Shown piece after piece: positions 7,065 to 61,495 of a stretch of 64,000 bases of DNA. The DNA comes from Methylobacter sp. S3L5C. Its GTDB lineage: Bacteria > Pseudomonadota > Gammaproteobacteria > Methylococcales > Methylomonadaceae. The position numbers and the translations under genes are program-made. How positions within the stretch are numbered: the stretch's first letter is position 1; every line of letters starts with the position of its first letter. Where the stretch lies: the NCBI RefSeq assembly GCF_022788635.1, contig NZ_CP076024.1, positions 3,348,001 through 3,412,000 on the forward strand. Direction: 5' to 3'. The notes beneath the pieces were generated by a model. That model did not search any database. It was not told where the DNA came from and saw only the letters and a list, made by a program, of their open reading frames with translations.

Positions 7065-7065
7065 C

Positions 7066-10982: not shown

Positions 10983-11147
10983 ATGGCTATTTTTCTAACA
11001 ATAGTGATTTTTCTACGAAAAGAACAAAAGACACAAAAGAAGAGGGAAGTTGCAATGTTTTTCTAAACTTTAGATAATCTTTTCATGCTTTATATTGTTA
11101 GCGGTGGGCAAAAAAGCCTGTACATTCCTACCCTGAAAAACCATATA

Positions 11148-11591: not shown

Positions 11592-11784
11592 AATCTTTAT
11601 CCTAAATATCCAATAAATAACCACTCATTAGACACTTGCCTGCCAATATTAATAAATATTGTACATTGTTAACCTGTACAACTATTGTTTGCCAATGTAA
11701 TTATGGAAAAACCAGTACTGAAAATAGCTTAAACATTACCATTCAAATTATTTCATACACATTCATAACTTGACAATGCCCTCT

Positions 11785-36302: not shown

Positions 36303-36857
36303 TTAACGAAGGTGAAACAGTATTTCATTAATCGTAAGTAAACAATCAAGTTGTAAATCCGGTTGAGGAGATACGACTATGTGCGGTGGTGCCATTAATA
36401 CGACCTTGCCTACCTTTGCGGTGCGTGCAGCAATCATGTCAGAAGCTTTGTCCCCCACCAGAATCGAGTCCTCAAGCGATAGTCCCAGATCATCCCTGGC
36501 ACGCAGAATCATCCCTGGATTGGGCTTGCGATCGAAGGAATCTGCTTTGTATTTTCCGATACCGTGTTCAGCATGATAGGGGCAAAAATACACGCCAGAA
36601 ATGTTGACACCTTCTTCTGAAAAACGCTCACACATCCAATCCGACAATTCACAAAACTGATCTTCAGTATAGTAGCCACGCCCTATTCCTGCCTGATTTG
36701 TCACCACTACAATCGCCATGCCTACTGCTATAGCACTACGGCAAAGATCGAATATACCGTCAATAAACATAAAATCGTTAATGCGATAAACATAGTTCGT
36801 CTCCACATTAATGACACCGTCACGATCAAGGAACAGCGCTCCGCGTTTGTTACCCAC
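36303..36857 (-). CDS. gmhB: D,D-heptose 1,7-bisphosphate phosphatase-like HAD hydrolase (GmhB)
   Basis: 184 residues from a GTG start. HAD motif I is LFLDRDGVINVE, motif II is VVVTNQAG, and the family signature FDRKPNPGMILRA is followed by the acidic motif VGDKASDM. It removes the 7-phosphate from heptose 1,7-bisphosphate (D-alpha series when paired with HddA/HddC). The zinc-binding loop of typical GmhB (CPHH plus CxC before RKP) is only half present: CPYH is kept, but the second cysteine pair is replaced by KADSFD. It belongs with gmhA, hddA and hddC further along the locus. Confidence 0.88.
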   Translation of the reverse strand: MGNKRGALFLDRDGVINVETNYVYRINDFMFIDGIFDLCRSAIAVGMAIVVVTNQAGIGRGYYTEDQFCELSDWMCERFSEEGVNISGVYFCPYHAEHGIGKYKADSFDRKPNPGMILRARDDLGLSLEDSILVGDKASDMIAARTAKVGKVVLMAPPHIVVSPQPDLQLDCLLTINEILFHLR

Positions 36858-47354: not shown

Positions 47355-48620
47355 CTATTTATTATTCAGTGCAATCAGTGCGTCCTGAAGGCTATTAAAA
47401 ATTACTATATCTCCTTGCTGTTGGAACAACTTGAGTTGATCAGAAGATATTGTACGCAAATCAAAGTGACCCAAGTCCACACGAGCACTAAAGAACTTGT
47501 CTCTATAAAAAACAATATTCCAACCAAAGTATGACTCCCTCAGTAATAACAGATCATGATGGTGTTTATCTCCGTGACAAAGTGCGTACAAACGGTTGTC
47601 GACGACATTATTATTTAATATTGCTGAACTTATCGCCTCTACCAAATAGTATCCATATCCAACACCTTGCTGTTTAAAGGCTATTACATCTTTAAGGTGC
47701 TTGAACTCCCTGATAATTTGCTTAGAGCCGCAAATGTAATAGCCATCAACAACAAATATTGATTTGTCATCACATAAATCGTATGCAAGTGCAACGTTAT
47801 TAGTGTTTATGGACGTATCAAATTCAAGCCAACCAGGTAAATCAATATCCAAAAATATTGTATTCAAAAATTCACCAAGTTTTCGAATACGAGGAGTAAA
47901 CAATGCTGGATATATCCTATCAATAGTTTCTTGGATATAACTGTCTTCCCATGTATGGTTAATACGCTCAATATGCAATAAATCCAAATTGACCGAAAGC
48001 CCTAAAAATTGCATTACTCGATCAAGAAAAGTATTGACGTCAATTTGCAGGTCATCATAAAACAATATGAGAAACTGTTCTTTTGGAAAAACTGTAAGCC
48101 ACCGACTTAGATTCTCAGCGTAATCGCTGGCAACAACAGGTCCGTCTGACAGCACATAAGACAATATCTCACTTTCTGTACAGTTTTCCCGGTTACGAAA
48201 AGTATGTTTCCAATCAGACGCGAGCCTTTTTCTGGGTTCCCGAAGGATGTATATTAACTTCAACTGGGGATTCATGTCGTAGATAAGCCGAATCCGAGAA
48301 AGTGGTAAACTGGCGTATGAAGGCGTCGCTTCCCCTTTGACTTGCCCTATTCCTCCTATGAATTGATTCAGATAGCTTCTGTAATCGAAGTTGAGTATAT
48401 TCGATGAGAAAAACTTAAGTTCCTTATGCTCAGCAACGAAAGCGTTAGATACCTGTTTTATTATTTCGCTAAGAAACGTTGTTCCAGATCTCGGTGCACC
48501 TATAATCATGAAATCTGGAATCAGATTTGGATTAAAAATATCGCTTAGGATGTCTTGTTTAACATTATCTTCGCAGCTTTGGTATGTGTCACGATCGACG
48601 ATAAATTTATCAAAATCCAT
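47355..48620 (-). CDS. Sulfotransferase with C-terminal aromatic module
   Basis: 421 residues. The PAPS-binding 5'-phosphosulfate loop is MIIGAPRSGTTFLSEII (near residue 37), and the 3'-phosphate strand is YILREPRKRLASDWKH. These are the signatures of bacterial/eukaryotic sulfotransferase-3-like enzymes that sulfate glycans. Residues about 355-421 (ESYFGWNIVFYRDKFFSA, HFDLRTIS) form the same aromatic module seen in the next two downstream proteins. Its start overlaps the wzt stop by 11 bp. It needs PAPS, and the only cysC in the window is disrupted. Confidence 0.88.
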   Translation of the reverse strand: MDFDKFIVDRDTYQSCEDNVKQDILSDIFNPNLIPDFMIIGAPRSGTTFLSEIIKQVSNAFVAEHKELKFFSSNILNFDYRSYLNQFIGGIGQVKGEATPSYASLPLSRIRLIYDMNPQLKLIYILREPRKRLASDWKHTFRNRENCTESEILSYVLSDGPVVASDYAENLSRWLTVFPKEQFLILFYDDLQIDVNTFLDRVMQFLGLSVNLDLLHIERINHTWEDSYIQETIDRIYPALFTPRIRKLGEFLNTIFLDIDLPGWLEFDTSINTNNVALAYDLCDDKSIFVVDGYYICGSKQIIREFKHLKDVIAFKQQGVGYGYYLVEAISSAILNNNVVDNRLYALCHGDKHHHDLLLLRESYFGWNIVFYRDKFFSARVDLGHFDLRTISSDQLKLFQQQGDIVIFNSLQDALIALNNK

Positions 48621-49968
48621 GATGTACTAAAACATTCAAATTTGATTTCTCCAATGGAATTTCCAAGAACGATGCCGAGATATCTAGTATCCCCATAAAT
48701 GTATAATCCTTCTGGTTCTTTATAGTAAAGTGAATAATTGATCGCCGCACTTCCATTACAATCCCTCCAGGTGAACCATCGATTTCTCCAACACCGAGGT
48801 CAATAAAATAGTCACCATGATTTAACGGTAACCGAAAATCAAATCGATAAAGACGGCTTTCACCTTTTAATGAGGTTGCCACATGGGTTTTTGCCAAAAA
48901 AGTATTAATGCCATAAATCGTAATTCCTGCTAATGTCTTCAACTCGAACCCAACAACCGGTGCGTAAACTGTTCTGTCGTAGCGCACTTTAATATATAAA
49001 GAAATCTCATCGCCACCTACAATATTTGTTTTATTTTTTTCTCCTGAAATAATTATTAGGTAATCAATTATTGCCGCACCACCATTCGCAACTATTACTT
49101 CTTTGTCATTATAAAAACGCCGTAACAGGCATTCATCTTTATTGGACTTGGCACAAAAAAGATGATCTATATCAGAATCTATAGGTGCCTCAGAAATCAA
49201 ATGATCTATCACAGGCATTAGTCTGTTGACCTGTGTAACGAACATGAGTTGTAGATATTTATCTACAATATTTTTAGGTTCACCTGCCGCATACAGCCGA
49301 TGCTTCTCAAGTAATATTGCGTAATCACATAATGCAGTGATGGCATCTACGCTATGAGAAACAAAGAGGATCGTTTTACCCGATTTCTTAAATTCGTGCA
49401 TCCTTGCGTAGCAACTCTCTTGGAAGCGGGCATCTCCGACGGCTAATGCCTCGTCAATAATTAATATGTCTGGATCAATGCTAGTAGCAGCAGCAAATGC
49501 TACCCGTACAAACATTCCTGAAGAGTATATTTTCACAGGCTGATCGAAGAATTCCCCTATATCAGCGAATTTTTCGATTTCAGGAAGTTTTTTATCAATT
49601 TCCTTGCTGGAAAAACCCATCACTTGAGCTTGAAATATCACATTTTCACGGCCCGTGAATTCTGGATTAAATCCCGCACCGAGTTCGAGTAACGCGGATA
49701 TACGACCGTTGACGATCACTTCTCCGCTAGTCGGTTGCATGATACCGGCGATAATCTGCAAGAGAGTTGACTTTCCGGAACCGTTACGCCCCAAGATGCC
49801 GACAGTCTGTCCCTTTGGGATTTCGAAACTCACGTCATCAAGCGCCCAAAACTCGCGGTGATAGTGCTTCGAGAACGGATGTAACGCCTCTTTTAGTCTG
49901 TCTTGATTGTTATCAAACAAACGATACTTCTTACTGATACCCTTAACAATAATTGCAGTTTCACTCAT
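48610..49968 (-). CDS. wzt: Polysaccharide ABC exporter ATPase (Wzt)
   Basis: 452 residues. The N-terminal ATPase has Walker A GILGRNGSGKSTLL, the polysaccharide-type signature YSSGMFVRVAFA and Walker B ILIIDEALAVGD. A C-terminal beta-sandwich region (about 290-445) corresponds in position to the Wzt carbohydrate-binding domain that recognises the modified non-reducing end of O-polysaccharide before export. It lies 7 bp from wzm. A substrate-binding Wzt usually implies a capped chain; methyltransferase and sulfotransferase genes in the same operon are candidate cappers. Confidence 0.92.
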   Translation of the reverse strand: MSETAIIVKGISKKYRLFDNNQDRLKEALHPFSKHYHREFWALDDVSFEIPKGQTVGILGRNGSGKSTLLQIIAGIMQPTSGEVIVNGRISALLELGAGFNPEFTGRENVIFQAQVMGFSSKEIDKKLPEIEKFADIGEFFDQPVKIYSSGMFVRVAFAAATSIDPDILIIDEALAVGDARFQESCYARMHEFKKSGKTILFVSHSVDAITALCDYAILLEKHRLYAAGEPKNIVDKYLQLMFVTQVNRLMPVIDHLISEAPIDSDIDHLFCAKSNKDECLLRRFYNDKEVIVANGGAAIIDYLIIISGEKNKTNIVGGDEISLYIKVRYDRTVYAPVVGFELKTLAGITIYGINTFLAKTHVATSLKGESRLYRFDFRLPLNHGDYFIDLGVGEIDGSPGGIVMEVRRSIIHFTIKNQKDYTFMGILDISASFLEIPLEKSNLNVLVHHGF

Positions 49969-49975
49969 AGCCGGC

Positions 49976-50776
49976 TCATATTACGTCAGCAAATTCTGGT
50001 TTTAATCGCCGGAATACGTAGGCACCAAAGGCACCAAAAATTAAAGTACCTACCCAAAAGCATGATAATTGCGTAAGGTCATGCCACACAGGTTGGTTGT
50101 ATAACAGTGCATCACGGTAACTTTCCACTATGTGATAGGCAGGATTAAGGTTTATAAGCGGCTTCCAGCGTTCCGGCAACATGTCAGTACTCCAGACGAT
50201 GGGCGTTGCCCAAAACCAGAAACTCAATAAAACGGACAGAAACTGTCCTAAGTCACGATGAAAGACATTGACGGCAGCAAACAGCCAGCCCAATCCTAAT
50301 GTCAGCGTTACTACACAGAAATAAGCATAGATTAACTGGACCAATCCCCAGCCGGGAACGATGCCATGGATAAGGAGTAAGCCAATAGTGAGCGTTAGTA
50401 ATATCAGATGTCCAAATGTCAATGAAATAATCTCTACCAATGGCAGGGTTTCGGTAGGAAACACCATTTTTTTTACTAAATGACGGTTGCCGACTACGGA
50501 GTTGGTCGATGCCGCAAGTGCTTCGGTAAAGAAACTCCATGGCAGAAATGCCGTCATGAAGTAAACATCAAACGGTATACCATTCGGCCCCTTCGCTTTA
50601 AAGCCCAAGGAGAAAACCATCCAGTATGAGAATACGGTGGCCAATGGAAGAACAATACTCCAGATAACACCGCCCCCAGTACCAACAAAACGGGTTTTAA
50701 AACTGCGACCCGCCAAACTAAGAATGGCTACTCTGTACGCGAGCAACTTCTGACCAAAAGAGACTATCGTTTGCAT
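49976..50776 (-). CDS. wzm: Polysaccharide ABC exporter permease (Wzm)
   Basis: 266 residues from the ATG at 50776 (a TTG at 50788 would add four). It is an ABC-2-type permease with six membrane segments. It shows the N-terminal RSFKTRFVGTGGGVIWSIVLPLA, the central AFLPWSFFTEALAASTNSVVGNRHLVKKMVFP block and the conserved C-terminal NLNPAYHIVESYRDALLYN. It pairs with Wzt to move lipid-linked polysaccharide across the inner membrane. Confidence 0.92.
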   Translation of the reverse strand: MQTIVSFGQKLLAYRVAILSLAGRSFKTRFVGTGGGVIWSIVLPLATVFSYWMVFSLGFKAKGPNGIPFDVYFMTAFLPWSFFTEALAASTNSVVGNRHLVKKMVFPTETLPLVEIISLTFGHLILLTLTIGLLLIHGIVPGWGLVQLIYAYFCVVTLTLGLGWLFAAVNVFHRDLGQFLSVLLSFWFWATPIVWSTDMLPERWKPLINLNPAYHIVESYRDALLYNQPVWHDLTQLSCFWVGTLIFGAFGAYVFRRLKPEFADVI

Positions 50777-50926
50777 GCTCTTTTTCAAAAAAATATTTTA
50801 GAAAGTGACATGTAAGCCTTCAATAAAATTGTGTTCAGCTTCATTTCGGGTTATTACAAATGTTTAATTCTTTTTGAATTAATGGATAAAAATATGTTGT
50901 ACATGGACGTAATTTCAAGAGCCTAC

Positions 50927-52107: not shown

Positions 52108-52752
52108 CTACTTCCTAATTTCATTTTTCCGCTCCGACCTTTTCAATTCACTCTGCTTGAATTGTTGCTTCAACAAAATCACCAACGTACTGGCATCTTC
52201 AATCTCACCGTTGGCAATAAGATTATCAATTTCTTCTGTGTTATAAAATGCCAATTCTCCGTGTCCAAGTTCGCCATCCACCACACTCGCAATCTTTCCA
52301 GTCACTATTACCGTAAAAAGGCGGGTGCGGGCTTTGATTACACCCGCCTCAGGCGAAACGGCACCAAGATCAATAAGCTCTTCGGCTGTTACCAAAAAGC
52401 CGGCTTCTTCTTGTAGTTCACGTAGCGCAGAAAACCTGACATCCTCGTCCGGCTCAACATGCCCTTTGATAGCCTCCCATGACTCTTTGCCCAGCGGATG
52501 CCTGAATATCCGGATCAACCCAACCTTATCTTCGATGATTGGCAGTACGGCAACACCCGCAATTGCACCCTCCAAAAGACAGTTGGGTACTACACTCAAA
52601 TAACGCTCTACCTGATGCCCGTTTTTATCAACAATGTGGTCTGCGAATACAGAGAAAACGGTGTTTTCAAAAACACGAGTTCGTGAGAGAACGTTAATCT
52701 CTGGATCACTATTCGCATTTATAGGATTAGCCGATAAGTTGGGTTTTATCAT
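52108..52752 (-). CDS. NUDIX hydrolase
   Basis: 214 residues. The complete Nudix box is GHVEPDEDVRFSALRELQEEAGF (about residues 100-122), in the order G-x5-E-x7-RE-x2-EE-x-G, within an ADP-ribose-pyrophosphatase-like domain (LIRIFRHPLGKESWEAIKG). It would hydrolyse a nucleoside diphosphate-linked compound, perhaps a nucleotide sugar, controlling a pool in the locus. It lies 5 bp from its downstream neighbour and 12 bp from the upstream epimerase, so it is part of the operon. Confidence 0.88.
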   Translation of the reverse strand: MIKPNLSANPINANSDPEINVLSRTRVFENTVFSVFADHIVDKNGHQVERYLSVVPNCLLEGAIAGVAVLPIIEDKVGLIRIFRHPLGKESWEAIKGHVEPDEDVRFSALRELQEEAGFLVTAEELIDLGAVSPEAGVIKARTRLFTVIVTGKIASVVDGELGHGELAFYNTEEIDNLIANGEIEDASTLVILLKQQFKQSELKRSERKNEIRK

Positions 52753-52764: not shown

Positions 52765-53703
52765 TTAAACGTTGCCGTATTGTGTGTTTTTGATCATGGT
52801 GTAGCCTTTGATCAACTCTGCAATGCCTGTATCTAGCGACATCGAAGTTTTATAACCGGTTGCTTCAATTTTTTCGTTCGATACTATGTAGTTGCGCTGA
52901 TCTGGATCTTTACCTATTGGCGCATCAATAAAAAGAAAGTCCGGTATTTGCTTCTGAATGGTTTCGCAGAGTTCTTTTTTTGATACGTTTGCCTCAGAAA
53001 GTCCGACGTTATAAATCTGTCCTTTCATAGTGTCAAAGTTGCCTATGGCGTGCTGAAAAGCACGAGAAACATCACGCACATGCACGTAGTTGCGTTTAAA
53101 ATAGCTCTCAAACAGCACGACGAAGCGATCGTTAACGGCACGGTAGGTAAAGTCATTTACGAGCAGATCAATCCGCATGCGTGGTGACATACCAAACACA
53201 GTGGCAAGTCGGAAACTGATGGCGTTTTCGCGCTGCATCAGTTCTTTTTCAATACCTACTTTTTCTATGGCGTACTGAGAAATAGGCCGCAGGGGGGACT
53301 CTTCGGTGCAGAAATTGTTTTCGTCACCGGTGCCGTAAGCGCTATTTGTTGTCGGCATCAAAACAATTTGCTCTTTGGACAGCAGTTTTATCATCAGGGT
53401 AATGGCGTCGTGGTTAATCGTTGTTGCGCCTATAGGGTCAAGGTTACACAAAGGTGCGCCGACCAAAGCTGCCAGTGGAATAACAATGTCCGCTTTTTTA
53501 AGTAAGGGAGCCATTACGCTTTCAATGCGAATATCTCCCTTAACAACCGAAAAATTAGGATTATTACAAACATGATTAAGGCTGGTTTGCTTGAACATGA
53601 AATTGTCTAGCACCGTTACTTTGTGGCCTGCATTAAGTAAATCAGGAACCATTGTGGAACCCAGATAACCGGCTCCGCCCGTGACAAGTATGTTGTAACT
53701 CAT
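52765..53703 (-). CDS. NAD-dependent nucleotide-sugar dehydrogenase, Cj1427-like (GDP-heptose 4-dehydrogenase candidate)
   Basis: 312 residues of the extended SDR family: [57 protein letters not shown] (catalytic Tyr/Lys) and RLATVFGMSPRMRIDLLVNDF. From memory, the PLAALVGAPLC and PRMR-DLLVNDF blocks match Campylobacter Cj1427. That enzyme oxidises C4 of GDP-D-glycero-D-manno-heptose and regenerates NAD by reducing 2-oxoglutarate to L-2-hydroxyglutarate. Heptose genes directly upstream and an L-2-hydroxyglutarate oxidase gene in the same locus support this reading. Without alignment, a generic epimerase remains possible. Confidence 0.78.
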   Translation of the reverse strand: MSYNILVTGGAGYLGSTMVPDLLNAGHKVTVLDNFMFKQTSLNHVCNNPNFSVVKGDIRIESVMAPLLKKADIVIPLAALVGAPLCNLDPIGATTINHDAITLMIKLLSKEQIVLMPTTNSAYGTGDENNFCTEESPLRPISQYAIEKVGIEKELMQRENAISFRLATVFGMSPRMRIDLLVNDFTYRAVNDRFVVLFESYFKRNYVHVRDVSRAFQHAIGNFDTMKGQIYNVGLSEANVSKKELCETIQKQIPDFLFIDAPIGKDPDQRNYIVSNEKIEATGYKTSMSLDTGIAELIKGYTMIKNTQYGNV

Positions 53704-53731: not shown

Positions 53732-54316
53732 TTATTTGCCAAACATTGCCACTTCAATGCATTCACAGAGCGTGTGGGCTAATATGATGTGCAGCTCCTG
53801 AATGGTGCTTGTGGCTATTCCTGGAGCAATAATTGAATAGTCGGCCATTGCCTTTGCTTGCCCCCCATCGTGCCCACAAAAAATAATACTCGGTATATTC
53901 ATAATGCGGCATTGCTCCAGTGCTTTAAGTATATTGGGCGATTGACCTGAAGTGGTTATACCTAAAAATATATCTTTTCCTGTAGCTTTGCCCGCCAGTT
54001 GCCTGGAAAATATCACGTCAAAGCCGTAGTCGTTGCCAATAGAAGTTAGTATAGAGGAATCTACGTTAAGTGCTTCAGCGGGTAATGGCGCTCTGTCGTG
54101 AGCCAAGCGACAGACAAACTCGGCGGCCAAATGCTGTGCATCAGCAGCTGAGCCGCCGTTACCTGCAATATAGAGACGTCCACCTTGTTTATAACGGTCG
54201 ATGATGATTTCTATTGCTTTGGAAAATACCTCAAGACACGCTTCATCGGCAAACAACTGTTGTTTGGCTTGTATAGAGGCTTCCAGGTTCTTCTTTAATC
54301 GTGCAATTGTATTCAA
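53732..54316 (-). CDS. gmhA: Sedoheptulose-7-phosphate isomerase (GmhA)
   Basis: 194 residues from the TTG at 54316, placed 4 nt after a strong AAGGAAGG ribosome-binding sequence and just past the hddC stop. The ATG at 54406 would overlap hddC by 74 bp and add 30 atypical residues. It is a SIS-domain protein with GNGGSAADAQHLAAEFVCR, GITTSGQSPNILKAL and the C-terminal EQ/HIILAHTLCE zinc region. It makes D-glycero-D-manno-heptose 7-phosphate, the first step for HddA. Length matches E. coli GmhA (about 192). Confidence 0.9.
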   Translation of the reverse strand: MNTIARLKKNLEASIQAKQQLFADEACLEVFSKAIEIIIDRYKQGGRLYIAGNGGSAADAQHLAAEFVCRLAHDRAPLPAEALNVDSSILTSIGNDYGFDVIFSRQLAGKATGKDIFLGITTSGQSPNILKALEQCRIMNIPSIIFCGHDGGQAKAMADYSIIAPGIATSTIQELHIILAHTLCECIEVAMFGK

Positions 54317-54332
54317 TAGCCTTCCTTTTTTA

Positions 54333-55040
54333 CTAAGCCAGTAAGGTGGGTGCGCGATGATAATCATCCGGTACGCCAATATCGATAAAGGTGCCTGAAA
54401 ACTCAACGCCTAGTAAATTCTGCCCCAAGTCCATGGCCGCCACCAAGAAATCATCCTCCAGAGATAGCTTGTCGCCTGGCGTAAACTTTTTATTAAGTAA
54501 AGCCTTTGGATTAACCCAATAGACGCCACCATTAGCCAAATGCCCCGCTACACCAGCGCCTGATTTAAGGGAGGTAATTTGCCCTTGCGGCGAAATATCC
54601 ATCCCCATATATCGACCTTCTTCATGGGTACGAAATAAAGAAAAGCACCAATCTGCGTTATTTGCCAAGGAGAACTCATTTAATAGTTTTAAATCCACAG
54701 CAAAATAAGTATCGCCATTCAGTAGTAAAAAAGGCTTGTTTTTACTCACTTTTTCAGTCGCCAACAATAGTCCACCGCCGGTACCGAGTGGGGTTTTCTC
54801 AATGACATAATCAAGCTCGGCATCCTTATAACGATTGCCAAAATGGTCAATAATAATCTCATGGCGATAGCCAACAGACAGTACAAAATGACTGACACCT
54901 TGTTTAATCCAGTAGTCGATCTGATGCTCAAGAAACGGTCGCCCACTTATCGGCGCCATTGGCTTGGGCAAGTCCGGTACGACACTGCGTAAACGCGTAC
55001 CCAAACCACCGGCAAGTATAATAGCGGAGGTTACTGCCAC
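54333..55040 (-). CDS. hddC: D-glycero-alpha-D-manno-heptose 1-phosphate guanylyltransferase (HddC)-like
   Basis: 235 residues from a GTG start. A nucleotidyltransferase of the GT-A-like fold, with IILAGGLGTRLRSVVPDLPKPMAPI, LLNGDTYFAVDL and the C-terminal GTFIDIGVPDDYHRA. The VVPDLPKPMA variant and the partner genes (gmhA, hddA, gmhB) fit HddC, which makes GDP-heptose. Glucose-1-phosphate or mannose-1-phosphate transferases share the fold. It lies 4 bp after the ColD-like gene and 16 bp before gmhA. Confidence 0.86.
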   Translation of the reverse strand: MAVTSAIILAGGLGTRLRSVVPDLPKPMAPISGRPFLEHQIDYWIKQGVSHFVLSVGYRHEIIIDHFGNRYKDAELDYVIEKTPLGTGGGLLLATEKVSKNKPFLLLNGDTYFAVDLKLLNEFSLANNADWCFSLFRTHEEGRYMGMDISPQGQITSLKSGAGVAGHLANGGVYWVNPKALLNKKFTPGDKLSLEDDFLVAAMDLGQNLLGVEFSGTFIDIGVPDDYHRAPTLLA

Positions 55041-55044
55041 TTTC

Positions 55045-56214
55045 TTATGCCGAATTTATAATTGCACAGAGTTCATCTACTTCTTCATTTTTCAAGTCCG
55101 GAAAGTTACCAATGTAAAAGCCATAGAAATGAACATGCTCGGTTTCCGGAAAATCAAGATGATGCGCGTTGGGTACAATGCCTTTCAAATAAGGTTGACG
55201 AATTTGATTACCACCACCAGCACTGCCTCTCCGAAATTCGATACCAGATTCGCGCATTTTCTGCATTAATCGTTGGATCAGTTCATCATCCGGGTGCTTC
55301 AATATAAGATTGAAGGCATAGTTGCTGGAGCCTTCCAGCTTAAAGTCAGTGCGGTATTTTGACGGATCGATTTGCTTTAAAAAACGCAACAGGTTTTCAG
55401 TACGACGTGTCACTATTTTGTCCAGACGTTTAAGTTGACTGCGGCCCATGATGCCGCCAATCTCGGTATTACGGACGTTATAGCCAGCGTAGGCAAAAAT
55501 AAAGTCAGGGTTTAGCTCAGGGTTTTCATTCGGGTAACGGTCGCGTAAAACATTGTCGTTAGCCTCTCGCACCATACCATGGGAGCGTAACATACGAACC
55601 TGCTGGTAGACTTCAGGATCATTGGTGCAAACCATGCCCCCTTCGATGGTGCTCATGTGGTGTGCGTAGTAATACGAAAAATTTGATATCCAGCTTATGC
55701 TACCCAGACGTGTGCCGTTATGGGTAGCGCCGTGGGATTCACAGACATCCTCAATCAGCGGGATATTGCGACGTTTGAGTTCATTGATCAGTTCGTCAGT
55801 CAACCCATCAAAACCTTGTACATGCGTCAGTAATACCGCCCGAGTTTTATCGGTAATTTTGCTCAAAATCAGGGCTGTGTCCATCGCCAGAGTCGCTGGG
55901 TTAATATCTGCAAATACCGGAGTAAAACCGTTTTGCAATACGGATGCGACATCAGAAACCCATCCCAACGGTGGCGTAATGACTTCACCACCTTCCGGGT
56001 AACGAATCTTGAGTACAGCCAAGGTCAAAAGGTTTGCGGATGCACCTGAGTTGACAAATACGCTGTATTTAACGCCAAGCCATTCTGACCATTCTGCTTC
56101 GAAGGCTCTTACATTGGCTCCGTGGGTCAGGATAGGATCGTCCTGCTTTAAATGTTCTATCACTGCGTCAAGGTCTTCGCGCAGGATGTTGTTACGCATT
56201 AAAGGAAATTTCAT
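55045..56214 (-). CDS. DegT-family PLP enzyme of ColD type (sugar 3-dehydratase candidate)
   Basis: 389 residues of the DegT/DnrJ/EryC1/StrS family. The motif that normally holds the PLP-binding Lys reads YYYAHHMSTIEGGMV, so His185/His186 replaces Lys. This is the hallmark of ColD (GDP-4-keto-6-deoxy-mannose 3-dehydratase, His188), which also has the CES-GAT stretch present here as CESHGATHN. Such enzymes remove the 3-hydroxyl of 4-keto nucleotide sugars using glutamate/PMP instead of transaminating. The likely substrate is a GDP-4-keto-heptose made by the neighbouring dehydrogenase. RfbH, which acts on CDP sugars, is an alternative. Confidence 0.86.
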   Translation of the reverse strand: MKFPLMRNNILREDLDAVIEHLKQDDPILTHGANVRAFEAEWSEWLGVKYSVFVNSGASANLLTLAVLKIRYPEGGEVITPPLGWVSDVASVLQNGFTPVFADINPATLAMDTALILSKITDKTRAVLLTHVQGFDGLTDELINELKRRNIPLIEDVCESHGATHNGTRLGSISWISNFSYYYAHHMSTIEGGMVCTNDPEVYQQVRMLRSHGMVREANDNVLRDRYPNENPELNPDFIFAYAGYNVRNTEIGGIMGRSQLKRLDKIVTRRTENLLRFLKQIDPSKYRTDFKLEGSSNYAFNLILKHPDDELIQRLMQKMRESGIEFRRGSAGGGNQIRQPYLKGIVPNAHHLDFPETEHVHFYGFYIGNFPDLKNEEVDELCAIINSA

Positions 56215-56230
56215 CTTATTTTTATCAGCA

Positions 56231-57196
56231 TTATTTTGGAAGTGATTGGATAAACGTCGTCACGTTACGTAATACAAATTCAGGACCGATTCCTACCTGT
56301 TCGTGCAGTTCAGCACGCGATCCGAGTTCGAAATGGTAAGCCCCTTCGACGCCGATATTAAGCATGCGTGCGTTTAGGCCACGTCGGGCAATAAATTCAA
56401 AGAGCATGGCATCAACGCCGCCTCGCCCGCGAAAGCCTTCTTCAAGCGTGACGATACCGGAATAAGATAAGAGAGCGTTCTGAAGTTGGTCGGCAGCAAA
56501 ATTGGAAATATCAAAAAGGTCTATAACGCCGACCGAATGTCCGGTAACAGCAAGCCTTTCTGCGACTTTTAGGGCGGTATGTAGCATATAGCCGGTTGCC
56601 ACCAGACAGATACTTTTACCACGTTGATGGATATGAAAGCCGACATCCAGATCTGGGGCGACTGTCTCATAAATTACGGGTAATACTTGGGCATCAAGCC
56701 GCAAATATTTAGGGCCCAGAGTGCTTATGCAACGATCAAAAAGAGCACCTGCACTGACATGATCGGCGGGTGAAAGTACTCTAAAATTGGGTAACGCACG
56801 CATCAGGGTAATATCTTCGTAACACTGATGCGTGGGGCCGGACACTACATAGCTATAACCAGCGCCAACCCCAATCAAATTGACGTTAAGGGGACGTACT
56901 TCTGAGAGTAGCGCCAAGCTGACGCGAATTTGCTCGTAACAGCGCATGGTAATAAATGGAGCAATGGCATAAGCAAAGACAGTGTAACCTTCCAGTGCCA
57001 AGCCAACTGAAACGTTGATCAAATTTTGTTCAGCGATTCCTACATTAACGAAACGCTCAGGAAAATCAGCGCGAATTTTGTCTAGAATTGGGGAGCCAAA
57101 ATCAGCACTGGTGAAGAAAATTTTATGATCTTCCGCCATAGCTTGCCAAATGCGATCAAGCAGTACATCGCGCATGGCGAGTGGTTTGATGCTCAT
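56231..57196 (-). CDS. Transketolase, C-terminal (pyrimidine-binding) subunit
   Basis: 321 residues containing the Pyr-binding and C-terminal transketolase domains: FFTSADFGSPILD, FVNVGIAEQNLINVSVGLAL, SYVVSGPTHQCYEDITLMR and GRGGVDAMLFEF. It forms a thiamine diphosphate enzyme with the product of the adjacent gene, whose stop overlaps this ATG by 4 bp. Split transketolases occur in secondary-metabolite and O-antigen clusters. Here it probably transfers a two-carbon ketol unit to or from a sugar of the locus. Confidence 0.88.
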   Translation of the reverse strand: MSIKPLAMRDVLLDRIWQAMAEDHKIFFTSADFGSPILDKIRADFPERFVNVGIAEQNLINVSVGLALEGYTVFAYAIAPFITMRCYEQIRVSLALLSEVRPLNVNLIGVGAGYSYVVSGPTHQCYEDITLMRALPNFRVLSPADHVSAGALFDRCISTLGPKYLRLDAQVLPVIYETVAPDLDVGFHIHQRGKSICLVATGYMLHTALKVAERLAVTGHSVGVIDLFDISNFAADQLQNALLSYSGIVTLEEGFRGRGGVDAMLFEFIARRGLNARMLNIGVEGAYHFELGSRAELHEQVGIGPEFVLRNVTTFIQSLPK

Positions 57197-58011
57197 GGGT
57201 GTTGCTCCAGCAGGCTGTCAATCAGCTCAGGTTTAGGATTCATAATGTGCGCAAGCGGGGCATTTTCAAGCCCTGGTACACCATGACCTTTCAAGGTTCT
57301 GGCTATCAGTGCCTTAGGTTTACCTGTATTGCTTGCTTTCATTTGCAGCAGAGCAGCTTGCACAGCTTCTATATCATGCCCGTCAACTTCATGGCAATCC
57401 CAGCCAAAGGCTGACAAGCGGGCGGAGAGCGAGTTATGACTCACAATCTCGTCGGTGTACCCAAGCATGCTAATTCCGTTGTTATCGACAATCAGGTGCA
57501 AATTATCAAGCTTATGTTGCGTAGCAAACATGATTGCTTCCCAGTTGGCGCCCTCATGTAATTCACCATCACCGCATACAACAAACACACTGCGGTCACT
57601 GCCTTTGCGCTTTAATCCCAAGGCCATGCCTGTGCCCACGCCCAAGCCGTGACCCAAAGAGCCGTTAACGGTTTCGTAGCCAGGAATCACCGGGTCGGGT
57701 ATCCCACCCAAAAAGCCGCCGGTTTGACAAACGCGCTGCAATTCTTCAAGTAGAAAATAGCTCAAGTCAGCTAAAATGGGATACATGCAGATTGAGCCAT
57801 GCCCTTTACTGATAATGCACCGATCACGGTGTTCGTCTAACGGCTGGCCAGGGTCAAAACGCAGAACCCCCCCATAATAAAGTGCGACAAAAATCTCGAT
57901 ACAAGAGAGCGATGAGGCTATACGGGTTTCTGGAGCCCTGCGATGTATCGCCAATGTTTCTCGCCATACCCAATGGGCTTTTTCGCGCAGATCAATCGGG
58001 TTAACTTTCAT
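57193..58011 (-). CDS. Transketolase, N-terminal (pyrophosphate-binding) subunit
   Basis: 272 residues with the thiamine diphosphate motif GDGELHEGANWEAIMFA followed by IVDNN, and family blocks CIISKGHGSICMYPILADL and NGSLGHGLGVGTGMALG. It is the partner of the C-terminal subunit gene just downstream. A housekeeping full-length transketolase would be about 660 residues and is not in the window. The 11-bp overlap with the fcl-like gene indicates a tight operon. Confidence 0.9.
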   Translation of the reverse strand: MKVNPIDLREKAHWVWRETLAIHRRAPETRIASSLSCIEIFVALYYGGVLRFDPGQPLDEHRDRCIISKGHGSICMYPILADLSYFLLEELQRVCQTGGFLGGIPDPVIPGYETVNGSLGHGLGVGTGMALGLKRKGSDRSVFVVCGDGELHEGANWEAIMFATQHKLDNLHLIVDNNGISMLGYTDEIVSHNSLSARLSAFGWDCHEVDGHDIEAVQAALLQMKASNTGKPKALIARTLKGHGVPGLENAPLAHIMNPKPELIDSLLEQHP

Positions 58012-58963
58012 GGGCAGGTTCCTTGCTTAAGGTATTGTCGAGATACCATTGGTAGGTGTCTTGGAGGCCTTTTTCAAAATCCACCACCGGTTGCCAGCCA
58101 AAGCCTCGAAGACGACTACTGTCGAGTAATTTTCTGGGTGCTCCATCCGGCTTGTTGGTATCCCATTCTATGGCGCCGGTGTAGCCAATGACACGGGCAA
58201 TGGATTCTGCCAATTCACGAATGGAAAAGTCTTTGCCGGTTCCCAAATTCAGGGGCAGTGTCAGCGTGGTTGTGTTGCCGGTAAGCAGCGCAATACAGGC
58301 ATCGGCGATATCATCGGTATGAATAAACTCACGTCGCGGTGTACCACTTCCCCACAGCGTCAAACTCTGGGCGCCCGTTAGTTGTGACTCATGGAAGCGC
58401 CGAATCAGAGACGAGAGGACGTGGCCGGACTTTGGGTCAAAGTTGTCGTTGGGGCCAAAAGCACTATTAGGAATCACGGGGATAAAACGTTGCTCGCCGT
58501 ATTGTTGGTTATAGGCAAGACACATTTGTAGACCGGCCAGCTTTGAAATTGCGTAGGCCAAGCTGGTCGGTTCAGGCTGTCCCGATAGTAAAGCGGTCTC
58601 TGCCATGGGTTGCGGACATTCGCGCGGATACATGCACGATGAGGCAAACAAAATCAGTTTGCGAACGCCCGTTTCGTGAGCTGCTTTAAGTACATTTAAT
58701 TGAATAGCCAGATTGGCGTTCATAAAGTCAGCCGGATAGGTCTGGTTCTCGATAATGCCACCGACTCTTCCTGCCGCCAATACCACATAGCCAGGTAAAT
58801 GCTTGTCAAAAAAACGAGCAACTGCTCCGGTATCGGTCAGTTCCAGATCCGTATGATTAGCCAATAGCAAATTGGAAAAACCTTCGCTTTGCAAGCGTCG
58901 AACAACCGCTGAACCAATTAAGCCGGTATGCCCGGCGACAAAAATTTTAGCTGTTTTATTCAT
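58001..58963 (-). CDS. fcl: GDP-L-fucose synthase-like epimerase/reductase
   Basis: 320 residues of the extended SDR family: IFVAGHTGLIGSAVVRRLQ, AAGRVGGIIENQTYPADF, FASSCMYPRECPQPM (Ser and Cys of the active site), YAISKLAG (Tyr/Lys) and FGPNDNFDPKSGHVLSSLIRRF. These match Fcl/WcaG, which epimerises C3/C5 of GDP-4-keto-6-deoxymannose and reduces C4. No GDP-mannose 4,6-dehydratase gene is in the window, so its substrate may instead be a GDP-4-keto-heptose, as for Campylobacter Cj1428. It lies 3 bp after hddA. Confidence 0.88.
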   Translation of the reverse strand: MNKTAKIFVAGHTGLIGSAVVRRLQSEGFSNLLLANHTDLELTDTGAVARFFDKHLPGYVVLAAGRVGGIIENQTYPADFMNANLAIQLNVLKAAHETGVRKLILFASSCMYPRECPQPMAETALLSGQPEPTSLAYAISKLAGLQMCLAYNQQYGEQRFIPVIPNSAFGPNDNFDPKSGHVLSSLIRRFHESQLTGAQSLTLWGSGTPRREFIHTDDIADACIALLTGNTTTLTLPLNLGTGKDFSIRELAESIARVIGYTGAIEWDTNKPDGAPRKLLDSSRLRGFGWQPVVDFEKGLQDTYQWYLDNTLSKEPAHES

Positions 58964-58966
58964 TAT

Positions 58967-59962
58967 TTACAGGCCGTTAGGTTGATACAATACGACACGA
59001 CTGCCGGAATCATCAAAATTGAAAGAGACATGCACCAAGTTTTTAAGACGTTCACGAATTGCCGCATGCTTCTCGGGTTTTGCAAAAAGCAGCATAAATC
59101 CGCCGCCGCCAGCACCAAGAATCTTGCCGCCAATTGCTCCAGCACGCATGGCTTCATCGTAAATTTGGTCGATTTCCGGGGTTGATACCTGGTCAGACAA
59201 GCTACGCTTGTACTTCCAGCTTAGGTCAATCAGCTTTCCAAATTCATCAATACTCACGTGACTATCCGTTAGAATAGCAATGCCCTCATCAACCATTTCT
59301 CGCATACGATTAAGTTCTGTTTCACGATTTTTGAGGTTGTCGATTTTAGATTTTGCGATCGCATCAGCAATGCGTGAAAAGCCGGTAAAACAGAGCATAA
59401 GGTGATCATGAAGTTCTTCAAGCCGATACCTTGACAGAATGATCGGTGACACGTCAAAAGAATCATCTTGATGAAAATCAATACGGTTAAAGCCACCGTA
59501 AGCAGCTGAAATCTGATCCTGAGAGCCAACATTCTCGCCAATGAGATTTTGTTCTATATGTATCGCATCTTTAGCCAGAGTGTGCTGACTAACCATCTGA
59601 CCACGAAGCCCGTACAGTGCATGCGCTAAGCCGACAGTAAAGGATGAACTGGATCCTAATCCCGAACGGGCGGGCAAATCGCCATCGTGATGAACTTCCA
59701 GACCATCAAAAACATTGGCCCAATTAAATACCGCCCGAACTGCAGGATGTTCAATTTCATGGTTATTACATACATTTTCGATATGGGAGTAGACAATACG
59801 ATGTTTGTGCTCGAAAAATGGCGGCAAACGACGGCAGGTAATGTAACAGTATTTATCGATAGTGGTTGCCAACACGGCACCTCCGTGTTCCCGATACCAT
59901 CCTGGATAATCGGTGCCGCCACCAAAAAAAGAAATTCTAAACGGGGTTCTGGTAATAATCAT
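58967..59962 (-). CDS. hddA: D-glycero-alpha-D-manno-heptose 7-phosphate kinase (HddA)
   Basis: 331 residues of the GHMP kinase superfamily. The N-terminal TRTPFRISFFGGGTDYPGWY is the HddA signature, the ATP loop is LPARSGLGSSSSFTVGL, and the C-terminal motif is KILGAGGGGFMLLF. It phosphorylates heptose 7-phosphate to the alpha-1,7-bisphosphate. This alpha-configured branch leads through GmhB and HddC to GDP-heptose rather than the ADP-heptose used for LPS core. It lies 6 bp from the radical SAM gene. Confidence 0.92.
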   Translation of the reverse strand: MIITRTPFRISFFGGGTDYPGWYREHGGAVLATTIDKYCYITCRRLPPFFEHKHRIVYSHIENVCNNHEIEHPAVRAVFNWANVFDGLEVHHDGDLPARSGLGSSSSFTVGLAHALYGLRGQMVSQHTLAKDAIHIEQNLIGENVGSQDQISAAYGGFNRIDFHQDDSFDVSPIILSRYRLEELHDHLMLCFTGFSRIADAIAKSKIDNLKNRETELNRMREMVDEGIAILTDSHVSIDEFGKLIDLSWKYKRSLSDQVSTPEIDQIYDEAMRAGAIGGKILGAGGGGFMLLFAKPEKHAAIRERLKNLVHVSFNFDDSGSRVVLYQPNGL

Positions 59963-59968
59963 GCGTTA

Positions 59969-61495
59969 TCAATTACCCAATATTTTGCGACTAAGATGGA
60001 TGCTGACCATGTCTTCTATATTTTTTCTTTCAAGTGTGCCAAATTTTTTCTCAACCAAATTTAAGTAAGCCGGGTTGCTAAAGTACGTTTGCCAAGCTTC
60101 GTCACGGAATCTTAAAACATCAGCTGAGCTAACGTATTTTGTAGGCAGTGGTTGGCTTTCGTAGGATAAAAAGGCGTAGCCTTCGTAGGAGTCCGGTAAT
60201 GCCCACCCGTTTTTCTTTGCAATGTTATACATCGGACTGCCCGGCAATGCCTGGCAAGGATACATATTTGCCATCTCGGTGTTGAGTTCCATGGCGAGAT
60301 CCAATGTTTCTTGCATTGTCTGCAAGGTGTCTTCCGGGAATCCAAAAATGTAATTACTGATAATTTTAATATCAGAGTCGTTAATTATTTTGCAAACTTC
60401 GCGAATATTAACTTCATGGAAGGAACCTTTTGACACTTCTTGGCGAACCAGTTGATTGCCGGCTTCAACCCCCAGCGCAAGCCAGTTGACTCCCGAGCGT
60501 TTAAATAAATCAAGCGCGTCTCTGCGAACCGTATCAACCCGCGAGTAGGTCCACATATTGAAACCAAAGTCCTGATCAATGACCTGTTGAAGAATCGGCG
60601 TGTAATATTTTTTATTTAAAAAGAACATCTCGTCGCTGATCCGTAAGGTACGTACGCCCATATCAGCGAGTTTTCGCATCTCACGACTTACCCATTCAGG
60701 ACTCCAGAAACGCATTCCTCGTGAATCTGCGGCATTAATTTCATTGCCGTTATCGGAGCGATTAACGATGTTGATCATGCAAAAATTACAGCCGAAATTA
60801 CAGCCTAAAGAAGTATATATGGCGGCAAATGGGGTGCGTTTTGCATGATCAAATTCGGCATGCCAGAAATGCGCGCGGTAAAGGTCTAACGGCTTTTCCC
60901 GGTAGGGCAGTAGATCCCAGGCATAGCCAGGCAAGTCATGATCCATCCGTTCCTGCGGTACTATGCCCTGTGGTGGATTAAGTGTTGGGATTTTGCTGTT
61001 TGCTTGCCCCTGCTTTTTATAACCGATGCCCTTGATGTATTGCAAATCGCTGCCAAGATTGCTCTTAAGAAGATTGTGCAGTGCATAAACGCCTTCATTT
61101 AACAGTACGATATCAACACAATTATAATCGAGCACTTCCATGGGTAATGCACTGGTATGAGAACCAACAAAACATATTGGAATTTCAGGGTGCTTTTCTT
61201 TAACTGACTTAGCCATCGCTAAAGCACCAATCATGCTGGTGGTGCCAGAATTTGGGTTTTGACCATACACAACAAAGACAACCAGACGTGGTCGTAAGTC
61301 TTCGATTCTTTGCACCGATTGCTCAAGAGAAAGTCTTTCAGCATCGCAATCAAGAATACCAACCCCAAAACCTTTTGAGCGGCAAGACTCTGCTAACAAC
61401 AAAGACCATGTCGGGGGCTCTATAGCTGAGTAAACTATTGCCAAGCCTTGATAGGCTTTAGCTGAAGAGTCTGGATTAACAAACAAGACATCCAT
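59969..61495 (-). CDS. Cobalamin-binding-type radical SAM enzyme
   Basis: 508 residues from the ATG at 61495, which has a TGGAT ribosome-binding-like sequence 6 nt upstream; a second ATG at 61507 would add four residues. The N-terminal B12-binding-like domain (about 1-170) shows FVGSHTSALPMEVL, and the radical SAM core (about 215-430) has the [4Fe-4S] motif GCNFGCNFC near residue 243 and the downstream GVEAGNQLVR. Family members C-methylate or rearrange unreactive carbons. It is the first gene of the long minus-strand operon. A C-methylation step on the sugar is one possible role. Confidence 0.86.
   Translation of the reverse strand: MDVLFVNPDSSAKAYQGLAIVYSAIEPPTWSLLLAESCRSKGFGVGILDCDAERLSLEQSVQRIEDLRPRLVVFVVYGQNPNSGTTSMIGALAMAKSVKEKHPEIPICFVGSHTSALPMEVLDYNCVDIVLLNEGVYALHNLLKSNLGSDLQYIKGIGYKKQGQANSKIPTLNPPQGIVPQERMDHDLPGYAWDLLPYREKPLDLYRAHFWHAEFDHAKRTPFAAIYTSLGCNFGCNFCMINIVNRSDNGNEINAADSRGMRFWSPEWVSREMRKLADMGVRTLRISDEMFFLNKKYYTPILQQVIDQDFGFNMWTYSRVDTVRRDALDLFKRSGVNWLALGVEAGNQLVRQEVSKGSFHEVNIREVCKIINDSDIKIISNYIFGFPEDTLQTMQETLDLAMELNTEMANMYPCQALPGSPMYNIAKKNGWALPDSYEGYAFLSYESQPLPTKYVSSADVLRFRDEAWQTYFSNPAYLNLVEKKFGTLERKNIEDMVSIHLSRKILGN

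Follow-up and report, generated by a model that had tools for sequence, protein, structure and literature searches.

An operon for a predicted GDP-activated, branched 3-deoxy-heptose in Methylobacter sp. S3L5C

The branching of keto sugars has been shown or proposed for three classes of ThDP enzyme, as set out in the relevant sections of a review (PMC12247030). In the yersiniose A pathway a 3-deoxy-4-keto nucleotide sugar is formed and then extended at C4 by ThDP-dependent carboligation, the product entering a surface polysaccharide; there the scaffold is a CDP-hexose and the enzyme is YerE, a member of the decarboxylase superfamily (sections of PMC12247030 and PMC4753412). In the cassettes described here the scaffold would be a GDP-heptose, and the enzyme is a split transketolase or PDH-E1-like. 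Two-carbon branches on keto sugars are also the work of the E1-type (alphaKADH2) enzymes of aldgamycin and of AviB1/AviB2 of avilamycin – E1-like or two-protein ThDP enzymes that parallel the short E1 pairs of Nitrospira-type cassettes – although the same review sections describe them for secondary metabolites, and ours lie in GDP-heptose cassettes. The transketolases of miharamycin and amipurimycin are likewise split, with a proposed two-carbon transfer to a keto sugar; 13 such sequences are given, all from Streptomycetes, and the review knows of no in vitro characterisation of a transketolase in the sugar-branching class (PMC12247030).

The early chemistry has a counterpart in the GDP-heptose pathways of Campylobacter jejuni. 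Cj1427 and the ColD-type HS:5 C3-dehydratase, combined in vitro, yield GDP-D-glycero-3-deoxy-4-keto-heptose (excerpt of PMC10680097), the same intermediate that we predict. The natural HS:5 3-deoxy route differs, in that dehydration to a 6-deoxy-4-keto-heptose comes first and C4 reduction last (excerpt of PMC10440746), and these excerpts of the Campylobacter pathway descriptions contain no mention of a ThDP enzyme, LhgO or a radical SAM gene. We found no published description of 3-deoxygenation together with carbon-chain branching on a seven-carbon sugar.

The operon listed in Table 1 probably builds a GDP-activated 3-deoxy-heptose, branched at C4, that goes into an exported surface polysaccharide. 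Its eight genes, described as a tight operon in the original prediction, were all recovered from the window (the whole 64,000-nucleotide stretch analysed), nearly contiguous on the minus strand between 53732 and 61507; the radical SAM frame opens at 61507 and has a second ATG at 61495, where the operon had been taken to end. HddA, HddC, GmhA and Fcl all score below curated NCBIfam cut-offs, and their labels are nearest-family names. GmhB and LhgO are pathway genes that had not been listed before; each passes an NCBIfam cut-off, while two other GmhB models score below theirs.

Table 1. Features of the operon and of pathway-related genes in the window
Feature	Position	Strand	Support
B12-binding radical SAM enzyme, first operon gene	59969..61495	-	PF04055 65.5 bits, PF02310 50.2 bits
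HddA-like D-glycero-D-manno-heptose 7-phosphate kinase, GHMP kinase	58967..59962	-	NF049969 154 bits (cut-off 600)
Fcl-like GDP-4-keto-sugar epimerase/reductase	58001..58963	-	NF047922 394 bits (cut-off 500)
TktN, N-terminal half of split transketolase-like ThDP enzyme	57193..58011	-	PF00456 110.6 bits
TktC, C-terminal half of split transketolase-like ThDP enzyme, pyrimidine and C-terminal domains	56231..57196	-	PF02779, PF02780
ColD-like PLP/PMP sugar 3-dehydratase, DegT family	55045..56214	-	PF01041
HddC-like D-glycero-D-manno-heptose 1-phosphate guanylyltransferase	54333..55040	-	NF049965 174.5 bits (cut-off 300), best NCBIfam match
GmhA-like SIS, sedoheptulose 7-phosphate isomerase (translation probably starts further into the frame)	53732..54406	-	TIGR00441 167.7 of 209.45 bits
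Cj1427-type GDP-heptose C4-dehydrogenase (C4DH)	52765..53703	-	PDB 6vo6 E 1e-112
NUDIX hydrolase, optional neighbour (homologues in some cassette loci only)	52108..52752	-	PF00293 39.5 bits
Wzm/Wzt-type polysaccharide ABC exporter, probable export route (ATPase with Wzt_C 48610-49968; permease 49976-50788)	48610..50788	-	PF14524, PF00005, PF01061
GmhB heptose bisphosphate phosphatase	36303..36857	-	TIGR00213 178.9 bits (cut-off 149.6)
L-2-hydroxyglutarate oxidase (LhgO)	35065..36270	-	NF008726 353.8 bits (cut-off 299)

The HddA-like protein matches the heptose kinases of PDB 3k85 (E 5e-38) and 4n3o (E 4e-33), with a putative sugar kinase (4usm/4usk) ranking ahead of both. The gene just downstream of the operon, noted earlier as a 4-dehydrogenase candidate, is indeed closely related, with 169 of 311 residues (54.3%) identical, to PDB 6vo6, which we take to be Cj1427, the Campylobacter GDP-heptose C4-dehydrogenase. 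C4DH lacks the acidic residue that marks 4,6-dehydratases, reading PTTNSAYG in the window, and PTTNS(A/F)YG recurs in 83 of 87 cassette homologues, the pattern being unmatched in four. The Cj1427-type enzyme would oxidise C4 and pass the hydride to 2-oxoglutarate, and the by-product, L-2-hydroxyglutarate, is predicted to be recycled by LhgO. Here LhgO lies some 16.5 kb from C4DH and is the sole LhgO match in the genome. Elsewhere it stands immediately behind C4DH in 10 of 64 loci, with gaps of -4 to 58 bases; this placement, like the position of the sole match in the window, lends indirect support to the predicted use of 2-oxoglutarate, while the small number of such loci counts against the preferred explanation. 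If the assignment is right, a bacterial L-2-hydroxyglutarate oxidase acquires a suggested part in sugar biosynthesis.

The ColD-like enzyme would then remove O-3 to give GDP-3-deoxy-4-keto-heptose. Its four best solved relatives are all ColD entries (PDB 2gms, E 2e-50, 112 of 357 aligned residues identical), and the histidine said to replace the PLP lysine is indeed there: YYAHH in the window protein aligns onto YSHH of E. coli ColD, whose first H, presumably H188, is the position at which two PDB variants of the E. coli enzyme differ. The HH pattern holds in 92 of 96 ColD-cluster sequences, the window included; the exceptions are L090 (HHLST) and, in each of L023, L039 and L088, a second copy of the DegT family. 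With C4DH so close to 6vo6, and the same two steps carried out in vitro by Campylobacter enzymes, the proposed order from GDP-heptose to the 4-keto and then the 3-deoxy-4-keto sugar is well supported.

The competing pathway named beforehand was that of GDP-colitose (Gmd, ColD, ColC), which likewise combines a ColD-like 3-dehydratase with an Fcl-like epimerase/reductase, ColC being, we assume, similar to Fcl. Unlike that pathway, the operon adds a ThDP enzyme. The finding that was to refute the prediction, a Gmd gene close by together with enzymes of the true GDP-colitose type, was not obtained: no Gmd is seen nearby, and the dehydratase shares no more than 31% identity with E. coli ColD. Campylobacter C3-dehydratases, by the figures excerpted from PMC10440746, share 62-67% identity with those of E. 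coli and Yersinia. Within the window, the statement that Gmd is missing stands for the open reading frames examined, the PF16363 match at 38189-39130 scoring 169 bits, but it fails for the genome, in which a Gmd-like PF16363 protein scores 509 bits at 2285167 and further members occur elsewhere. A GDP-colitose enzyme set was rejected, with ColD at 31.4% identity and the best PF16363 match more than 1 Mb away. A YerE-type TPP flavoprotein acting on a CDP-hexose scaffold was also ruled out, by the split transketolase domains and by the HddC, HddA, GmhA and C4DH genes.

The feature that sets this locus apart is the ThDP enzyme. TktN matches the split transketolase of PDB 6yak (E 5e-43) and TktC matches PDB 6yaj (E 3e-31), and the same gene set does occur elsewhere: a ColD-like gene was compared across 81 bacterial and 26 viral loci. 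Upstream sequence of 1.5 kb or more is available for 75 bacterial loci, and 73 of these carry a ThDP enzyme within 9 kb of ColD, the gene content that a yersiniose-type pathway would call for; 42 are split transketolases, 29 short E1 pairs and two fused E1 proteins. Whatever the subfamily, no other detected gene lies between the ThDP enzyme and ColD, on its upstream side, in 71 of these 73, and a radical SAM gene intervenes in the other two. Of the viral loci, 23 extend 2.5 kb or more upstream, and every one of them has a ThDP pair, of three kinds (12, 7 and 4), HddA lying between pair and ColD. No ThDP gene was found in the 2.7 kb upstream in L034 or the 10 kb upstream in L070, both of which have ColD and C4DH. 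The short E1 proteins are about 200 and 178 amino acids long, and no transketolase C-terminal domain was detected in the four short E1-pair proteins scanned.

Mapped onto the ColD tree, the kind of ThDP enzyme changes 11 times, against a minimum of 4; the starred branches taken alone force fewer switches (TK 2, E1s 4, E1L 3), and kinds are strongly clustered (shuffled mean 40.6 changes). The persistence of a ThDP enzyme beside ColD, despite differing and repeatedly swapped subfamilies, is best explained if all of them carry out the same ThDP-dependent reaction and the 3-deoxy-4-keto sugar is its substrate. The split transketolase-like enzyme would transfer an acyl anion, most likely of two carbons, to the C4 ketone, leaving a tertiary alcohol with a ketone-bearing branch and, if two carbons are added, a nine-carbon sugar. 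Should this be correct, ThDP sugar branching extends beyond CDP-hexoses and antibiotic sugars to GDP-heptoses, with split transketolases and minimal E1 enzymes taking the branching role in environmental bacteria. C4DH, ColD and TktN/TktC form a testable enzyme set for such chemistry.

A sugar without a branch is the first alternative to weigh. Here C4DH and ColD would be followed by C5 epimerisation and C4 reduction by Fcl, as in colitose, and the ThDP enzyme would make another metabolite for the same polysaccharide. Precedents exist in the excerpted accounts of Campylobacter 3,6-dideoxy-heptoses, made by C3-dehydratase, epimerase and C4-reductase (PMC10440746), and of 3-deoxy-heptoses made likewise in vitro (PMC10680097). 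The window Fcl keeps S107, C109, Y136, K140, H179 and R187 of the E. coli enzyme; among 37 aligned cassette homologues the S, C, Y and K are present in 36 (one is gapped) and His179 in all. This full set of checked epimerisation and reduction residues would fit a plain colitose-like end. L034 and L070, moreover, have no detected ThDP gene, and of the 23 loci without a close Fcl (at least 55%), 7 have a weaker Fcl-family gene (41-51%) elsewhere in the locus. Even so, we consider the unbranched product unlikely: those 23 loci are among 54 bacterial loci with full coverage, and 53 of the 54 have the ThDP enzyme. No Fcl match was seen in the examined flanks of any viral locus, the pattern there being ThDP without Fcl, and in 71 of 73 bacterial loci the ThDP gene keeps its place next to ColD regardless of subfamily. 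Since Fcl is so often missing, this C4 reductase is dispensable, in keeping with a carbon-carbon bond-forming step that consumes the C4 ketone. In the branched pathway Fcl, where present, may epimerise C5 before branching or reduce the branch ketone.

The nature of the donor is a separate matter. In E. coli TktA numbering, the bacterial cassette TktN and TktC keep the ThDP/Mg-binding and catalytic residues D155, E160, N185, H66, H261, E411 and H473, and have lost H26, H100, S385, H461, D469 and R520, in essentially all homologues (39 for TktN, 37 for TktC). The replacements are R for H26, I for H100, P for S385, S for D469 and A for R520, with H461 falling in a gap, and R358 is the only contact kept among the sugar-phosphate and ketose-donor positions checked. 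Four viral transketolase-like pairs keep H26 and R520, so the losses are not universal. H26 and H100 are, we assume, contacts for ketose donors, and the other contact roles are assigned on the same footing; because both are gone, a ketol donor is not supported. The earlier proposal of ketol transfer to C4 survives as ThDP branching at C4, the best-supported form of the step, and gives way as regards the ketol, since the transketolase has shed the majority of its customary contacts to donor and phosphate.

These losses, and the swapping of several ThDP kinds among loci, would also suit an enzyme that acts on the C4 ketone with a chain of other than two carbons, giving a product larger than a nonose and branches that differ between E1 and transketolase cassettes. 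ErwE, which is related to YerE, favours hydroxylated 2-oxo acids of greater length, but the E1-type enzymes that branch sugars seem to specialise in two-carbon units (both from sections of PMC12247030), and among the cassette genes none was recognised as making an unusual 2-oxo acid; we rate the longer chain as improbable.

Sedoheptulose 7-phosphate is a product of transketolase and the substrate of GmhA, which might suggest that the split enzyme only supplies GmhA. The loss of most sugar-phosphate contacts argues against this role, the genome has a full-length transketolase (678-aa frame), one being present likewise in 9 of the 10 further cassette genomes that were searched, E1-type enzymes replace the split form in 31 of 75 bacterial loci, and a second split transketolase adjoins an RfbH-like gene in the same genome; mere supply is most improbable. 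That the ColD-like enzyme is instead an aminotransferase making a 4-amino-heptose, as DegT/DnrJ/EryC1 membership would allow, is very hard to reconcile with the histidine at the PLP-lysine position in the window protein and the checked cassette homologues, and with ColD entries as its best solved relatives.

Returning to the branched heptose, its distribution suggests a wider setting. Cassette split transketolases occur, going by record titles, in Pseudomonadota, Nitrospirota, Chlorobiota and Bacteroidota, and on viral contigs; an NTP_transferase (HddC-type) gene was absent from all nine phage cassette records searched, which may be fragments. Tentatively, and with rather less confidence than we place in the pathway itself, these loci could represent a mobile module, shared by several bacterial phyla and T4-like phages, in which a fixed GDP-3-deoxy-4-keto-heptose core is joined to an exchangeable ThDP slot, swaps in which change the branch and the surface antigen. 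The occupants of the slot, so read, are the split transketolase, the short E1 pair, the long E1 pair and the fused E1. Such a module would imply a whole group of branched higher sugars not yet described, along with a phage-borne way to alter the host surface. What appears new, on the evidence of gene content, is a yersiniose-like logic applied to GDP-heptose by transketolase/E1 enzymes, phages included; if true, methanotrophs, Nitrospira and pseudomonads carry an undescribed class of surface sugar, with a phage version of the pathway.

Also in favour of the branched product, the same genome holds a parallel CDP-type cluster, composed of an RfbF-like NTP transferase, RfbG-like and RfbH-like genes, the second split transketolase and an SDR. 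The radical SAM enzyme is at most a candidate for the C-methylation proposed earlier. Among the 25 best of 26 NCBIfam matches none reaches its cut-off (top HpnJ, 116.4 of 577.6 bits); the B12-binding domain is present, and the CX3CX2C cluster motif is kept in all 76 cassette homologues.

The operon that the original prediction described, with genes for GmhA, HddC, a ColD-type dehydratase, a split transketolase, Fcl, HddA and a B12-binding radical SAM enzyme (rSAM), was confirmed, HddA, HddC, GmhA and Fcl being nearest-family names whose scores lie under the NCBIfam cut-offs. So too was the candidate 4-dehydrogenase just downstream (C4DH), on its likeness to PDB 6vo6, which we take to be Campylobacter Cj1427, a GDP-heptose C4-dehydrogenase. 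The pathway read from these genes – GDP-heptose to the 4-keto and then the 3-deoxy-4-keto sugar, followed by branching – is supported: the early steps by the likenesses of C4DH and ColD, and the branching by the gene neighbourhoods considered below.

Coordinates of the GDP-heptose cassette, of related genes in the window and of a second cluster (L123) in the same genome
Feature	Position	Strand	Genes or neighbours	Match
Eight-gene cassette	61507 down to 53732	minus	rSAM, HddA-like kinase, Fcl-like epimerase/reductase, transketolase N half (TktN), transketolase C half (TktC), ColD-like dehydratase, HddC-like guanylyltransferase, GmhA-like isomerase	
C4DH	52765-53703		next gene after cassette	54.3% identity to PDB 6vo6 (311 residues)
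GmhB	36303-36857		adjoins LhgO	NCBIfam cut-off reached
L-2-hydroxyglutarate oxidase (LhgO)	35065-36270		adjoins GmhB	NCBIfam cut-off reached
L123 cluster	~895-902 kb (G000:C1:889000-908900, 6086-12923)		NTP transferase (RfbF-like by eye), RfbG-like, RfbH-like, second split transketolase, SDR	

The active-site motif of the window's C4DH reads PTTNSAYG, and PTTNS(A/F)YG is matched by 83 of the 87 cassette C4DH homologues; the acidic residue that 4,6-dehydratases use is therefore missing. The ColD-like enzyme carries the catalytic His; its identity is 31.4% to E. coli ColD (357 aligned residues) and 28% to the RfbH-like protein of its own genome. The reduced 3-deoxy-heptoses made in vitro are described as new in section 24 of PMC10680097, and the window operon resembles a natural form of the enzyme combination used there.

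A central issue is how constant this gene set is. Scanning GTDB contigs with ColD gave 299 relatives, of which the best 80 were used; with one locus from another genome (G141) these make 81 bacterial loci, and the scan of viral contigs gave 26 relatives and thus 26 viral loci. Genes were counted by tblastn because the ORF caller lost some genes of GC-rich loci to antisense ORFs. The set recurs, with variants, in the order (rSAM) HddA (Fcl) ThDP pair ColD HddC (GmhA) C4DH. Complete bacterial loci – those extending 7 kb or more upstream and 4 kb or more downstream of ColD (n = 54) – all contain HddC and C4DH, and 53 contain HddA. A close rSAM (at least 60%) is present in 41/54 and a weaker one in 4/54, along with Fcl (at least 55%) in 31, GmhA in 26, GmhB in 9 and LhgO in 8.

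Evidence for the branching step came from the ThDP slot, which in the window is occupied by the split transketolase. Many other loci, L054 for example, hold a short pair of about 200 aa (Dehydrogenase E1) and about 178 aa (transketolase pyrimidine domain), and a fused PDH-E1-like protein stands in the slot of L090 (687 aa) and L051. Where at least 1.5 kb upstream of ColD is available (75 bacterial loci), the slot is filled by 42 split transketolases, 29 short E1 pairs and two fused E1s, no ThDP gene being found in L034 and L070. The ThDP gene is the closest detected upstream neighbour of ColD in 71 of these 73 bacterial loci; in L038 and L087 an rSAM gene lies between the two. A ThDP pair is present in every viral locus that extends at least 2.5 kb upstream (23 of 23: short E1 in 12, longer E1 in seven, transketolase-like in four), with HddA placed between the pair and ColD. 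On the ColD tree (107 rows; L117, with only 51 residues, dropped, and seven rows without one assigned ThDP kind uncounted) the ThDP kind needs 11 changes against a minimum of 4, and the kinds are strongly clustered, the shuffled mean being 40.6 changes; the starred branches alone force fewer switches (TK 2, E1s 4, E1L 3).

ThDP enzymes of different subfamilies thus replace one another while their ColD and C4DH neighbours stay, and the common denominator would be an acyl-anion reaction on a shared intermediate. We regard this exchange beside constant neighbours as our strongest case for C4 branching: the ThDP enzyme would add an acyl anion to C4 of GDP-3-deoxy-4-keto-heptose. According to PMC12247030 (sections 7 and 9), three ThDP enzyme classes are known or proposed for acyl-anion reactions on keto sugars. 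The cassette would work like the yersiniose pathway, yet is not a member of it, and among the open-licence papers searched no title or abstract opening describes a ThDP enzyme at work in a GDP-heptose pathway.

The possibility that the cassette transketolase merely supplies sedoheptulose 7-phosphate was weighed against its residues, with E. coli TktA as reference and using those halves that the ORF caller found among 45 bacterial transketolase loci (39 N, 37 C). The ThDP, Mg and catalytic residues checked are kept, and R358 is retained. H26 is replaced by R in 38/39 N halves (one gapped) and H100 by I in 39/39, while each of the 37 C halves has P for S385, S for D469, A for R520 and a gap at H461; in TktA these six residues, like R358, contact the sugar phosphate or ketose donor. 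A full-length transketolase is encoded elsewhere in the window's genome, and likewise in nine of the ten further cassette genomes searched. Across 274 genomes of the class, identity to TktN exceeds 70% only in the window's genome and G141 (next best 44%), the same two that carry a ColD-like gene at E 1e-60. The altered contact residues, the separate full-length enzyme and the distribution of TktN therefore speak against supply of sedoheptulose 7-phosphate and, together with the E1 kinds found in the same slot, lead us to reject it. The donor of the branching enzyme may be a ketol or a 2-oxo acid such as pyruvate. The four viral transketolase-like pairs keep H26 and R520 but not H100, S385, H461 or D469, and their residue at the D155 position is E. 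Plasmids gave no TktC match at E 1e-60. Elsewhere in the class, six loci (L130, L131, L135-L137, L139) hold split transketolases 37-41% identical to the window's beside SDR, GmhA-like, E1-like or RfbH-like genes, hinting at further transketolase-dependent sugar pathways.

The same genome offers a parallel in its L123 cluster, where a second split transketolase sits between the RfbH-like dehydratase and the SDR: an apparent CDP-hexose counterpart, with a yersiniose-like pathway in which transketolase would replace YerE. Its transketolase keeps H26 and H100; S385 is replaced by G, D469 by L and R520 by K, and H461 aligns to a gap. Given these differences from the cassette enzyme at the contact residues, the two may use different donors. 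By eye, the RfbH-like frame (8725-10624, 538 aa) opens with about 120 PemK/MazF-like residues, and a small ORF precedes it, an arrangement that would fit insertion of a toxin-antitoxin pair into the sugar operon with in-frame fusion.

Legionella maceachernii, in whose LPS PMC7867332 reports yersiniose, carries a copy of the GDP-heptose cassette (L162, G283:C16:136000-155500). The cassette as source of this yersiniose was set aside, since the same contig holds a decarboxylase-type ThDP gene, an NTP transferase gene (RfbF-like by eye) and an RfbH-like gene under its family cut-off, which could explain the sugar. Two different branching pathways may stand side by side in this organism.

The viral loci lie amid phage genes. 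In L094, for example, PHROGs recognise a major head protein along with a DNA helicase and a late sigma factor. The head-protein cluster is present in 12 of the 26 viral loci and each of the other two in 17; counting six clusters of this kind, 24 loci have one or more (exceptions L102 and L103). From this gene set the contigs appear T4-like. As far as the contigs reach, the viral cassettes comprise rSAM, the ThDP pair, HddA, ColD and C4DH; the flanks searched gave no match to Fcl, HddC or GmhA, and the nine viral records searched whole, which may be fragments, gave none to the NTP_transferase family. Two isolated cyanophages, S-SM2 and P-TIM68, encode an E1 relative (38-41%) inside clusters annotated with heptose genes. 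Synechococcus phage ACG-2014f, the best named phage match to ColD (36%), does not appear to bear the same cassette: its annotated neighbours within 8 kb include no ThDP or heptose gene. Two viral cassettes (L102, 6113-7018; L099, 6096-7001) also encode a 301-aa phage protein whose HxD-like features suggest, by eye, an iron/2-oxoglutarate oxygenase; Pfam gave no match for the L102 copy.

Residues S107, C109, Y136, K140, H179 and R187 of E. coli Fcl are kept in the window's Fcl and in almost all cassette copies, so that epimerisation and reduction are probably still possible. A close Fcl is missing from 23 of the 54 complete bacterial loci, seven of which have a weaker relative (41-51%) elsewhere in the locus, and its reductase activity is therefore probably no obligatory last step; Fcl could possibly epimerise C5 before branching, or reduce the branch ketone. 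The rSAM protein reaches no curated family cut-off, and a role in C-methylation is a guess.

LhgO (at least 40% identity) follows C4DH directly, on the same strand and with a gap of -4 to 58 bases, in 10 of the 64 bacterial loci that extend at least 1.5 kb past C4DH; the remaining 54 gave no such match at this identity, L018 and L053 (matches below 40%) and L022 (45%, upstream) being left out of the count. The only LhgO-family match in the window's genome is the window copy, about 16.5 kb from C4DH, and one of 14 control genomes passes the family cut-off. The simplest reading is that LhgO would recycle the by-product of C4DH.

A ColD-like gene at E 1e-100 is found in 5 of 121 sampled genomes of the family, the window's own included, and is absent from at least seven other members of the genus in that sample. 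Among the best 80 of 299 relatives the window's ColD is nearest that of a Methylobacter bin (92%). By record titles the carriers, many of them metagenome bins, belong to Pseudomonadota, Nitrospirota, Chlorobiota, Acidobacteriota, Gemmatimonadota, Omnitrophota and Bacteroidota, and horizontal transfer of the cassette is therefore likely. Named carriers include Methylomonas sp. LW13 and Methylobacter tundripaludum OWC-G53F. The window's genome also has a PmoA/AmoA-family gene; together with the likeness of its ColD to that of the Methylobacter bin, this makes a methanotroph near Methylobacter the most likely host. Transposase-like ORFs were noted by eye upstream of the operon (62645-63379) and near the left window end (681-1268).

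Beyond C4DH lie genes for a NUDIX protein, for an exporter of the Wzm/Wzt type that carries a Wzt C-terminal domain, and for a sulfotransferase, glycosyltransferases and methyltransferases. One protein of 1318 aa (41120-45076) combines glycosyltransferase family 2 domains with a methyltransferase domain; another of 758 aa (45066-47342) has a methyltransferase domain followed, by eye, by several similar repeats, each of some 100 residues, that alternate with stretches resembling coiled coils. Elsewhere in the genome, two stretches (G000:C1:1704803-1706556 and 4239556-4241309), each with a Gmd-family gene and a second SDR gene, have identical scores, which suggests a duplicated sugar locus.
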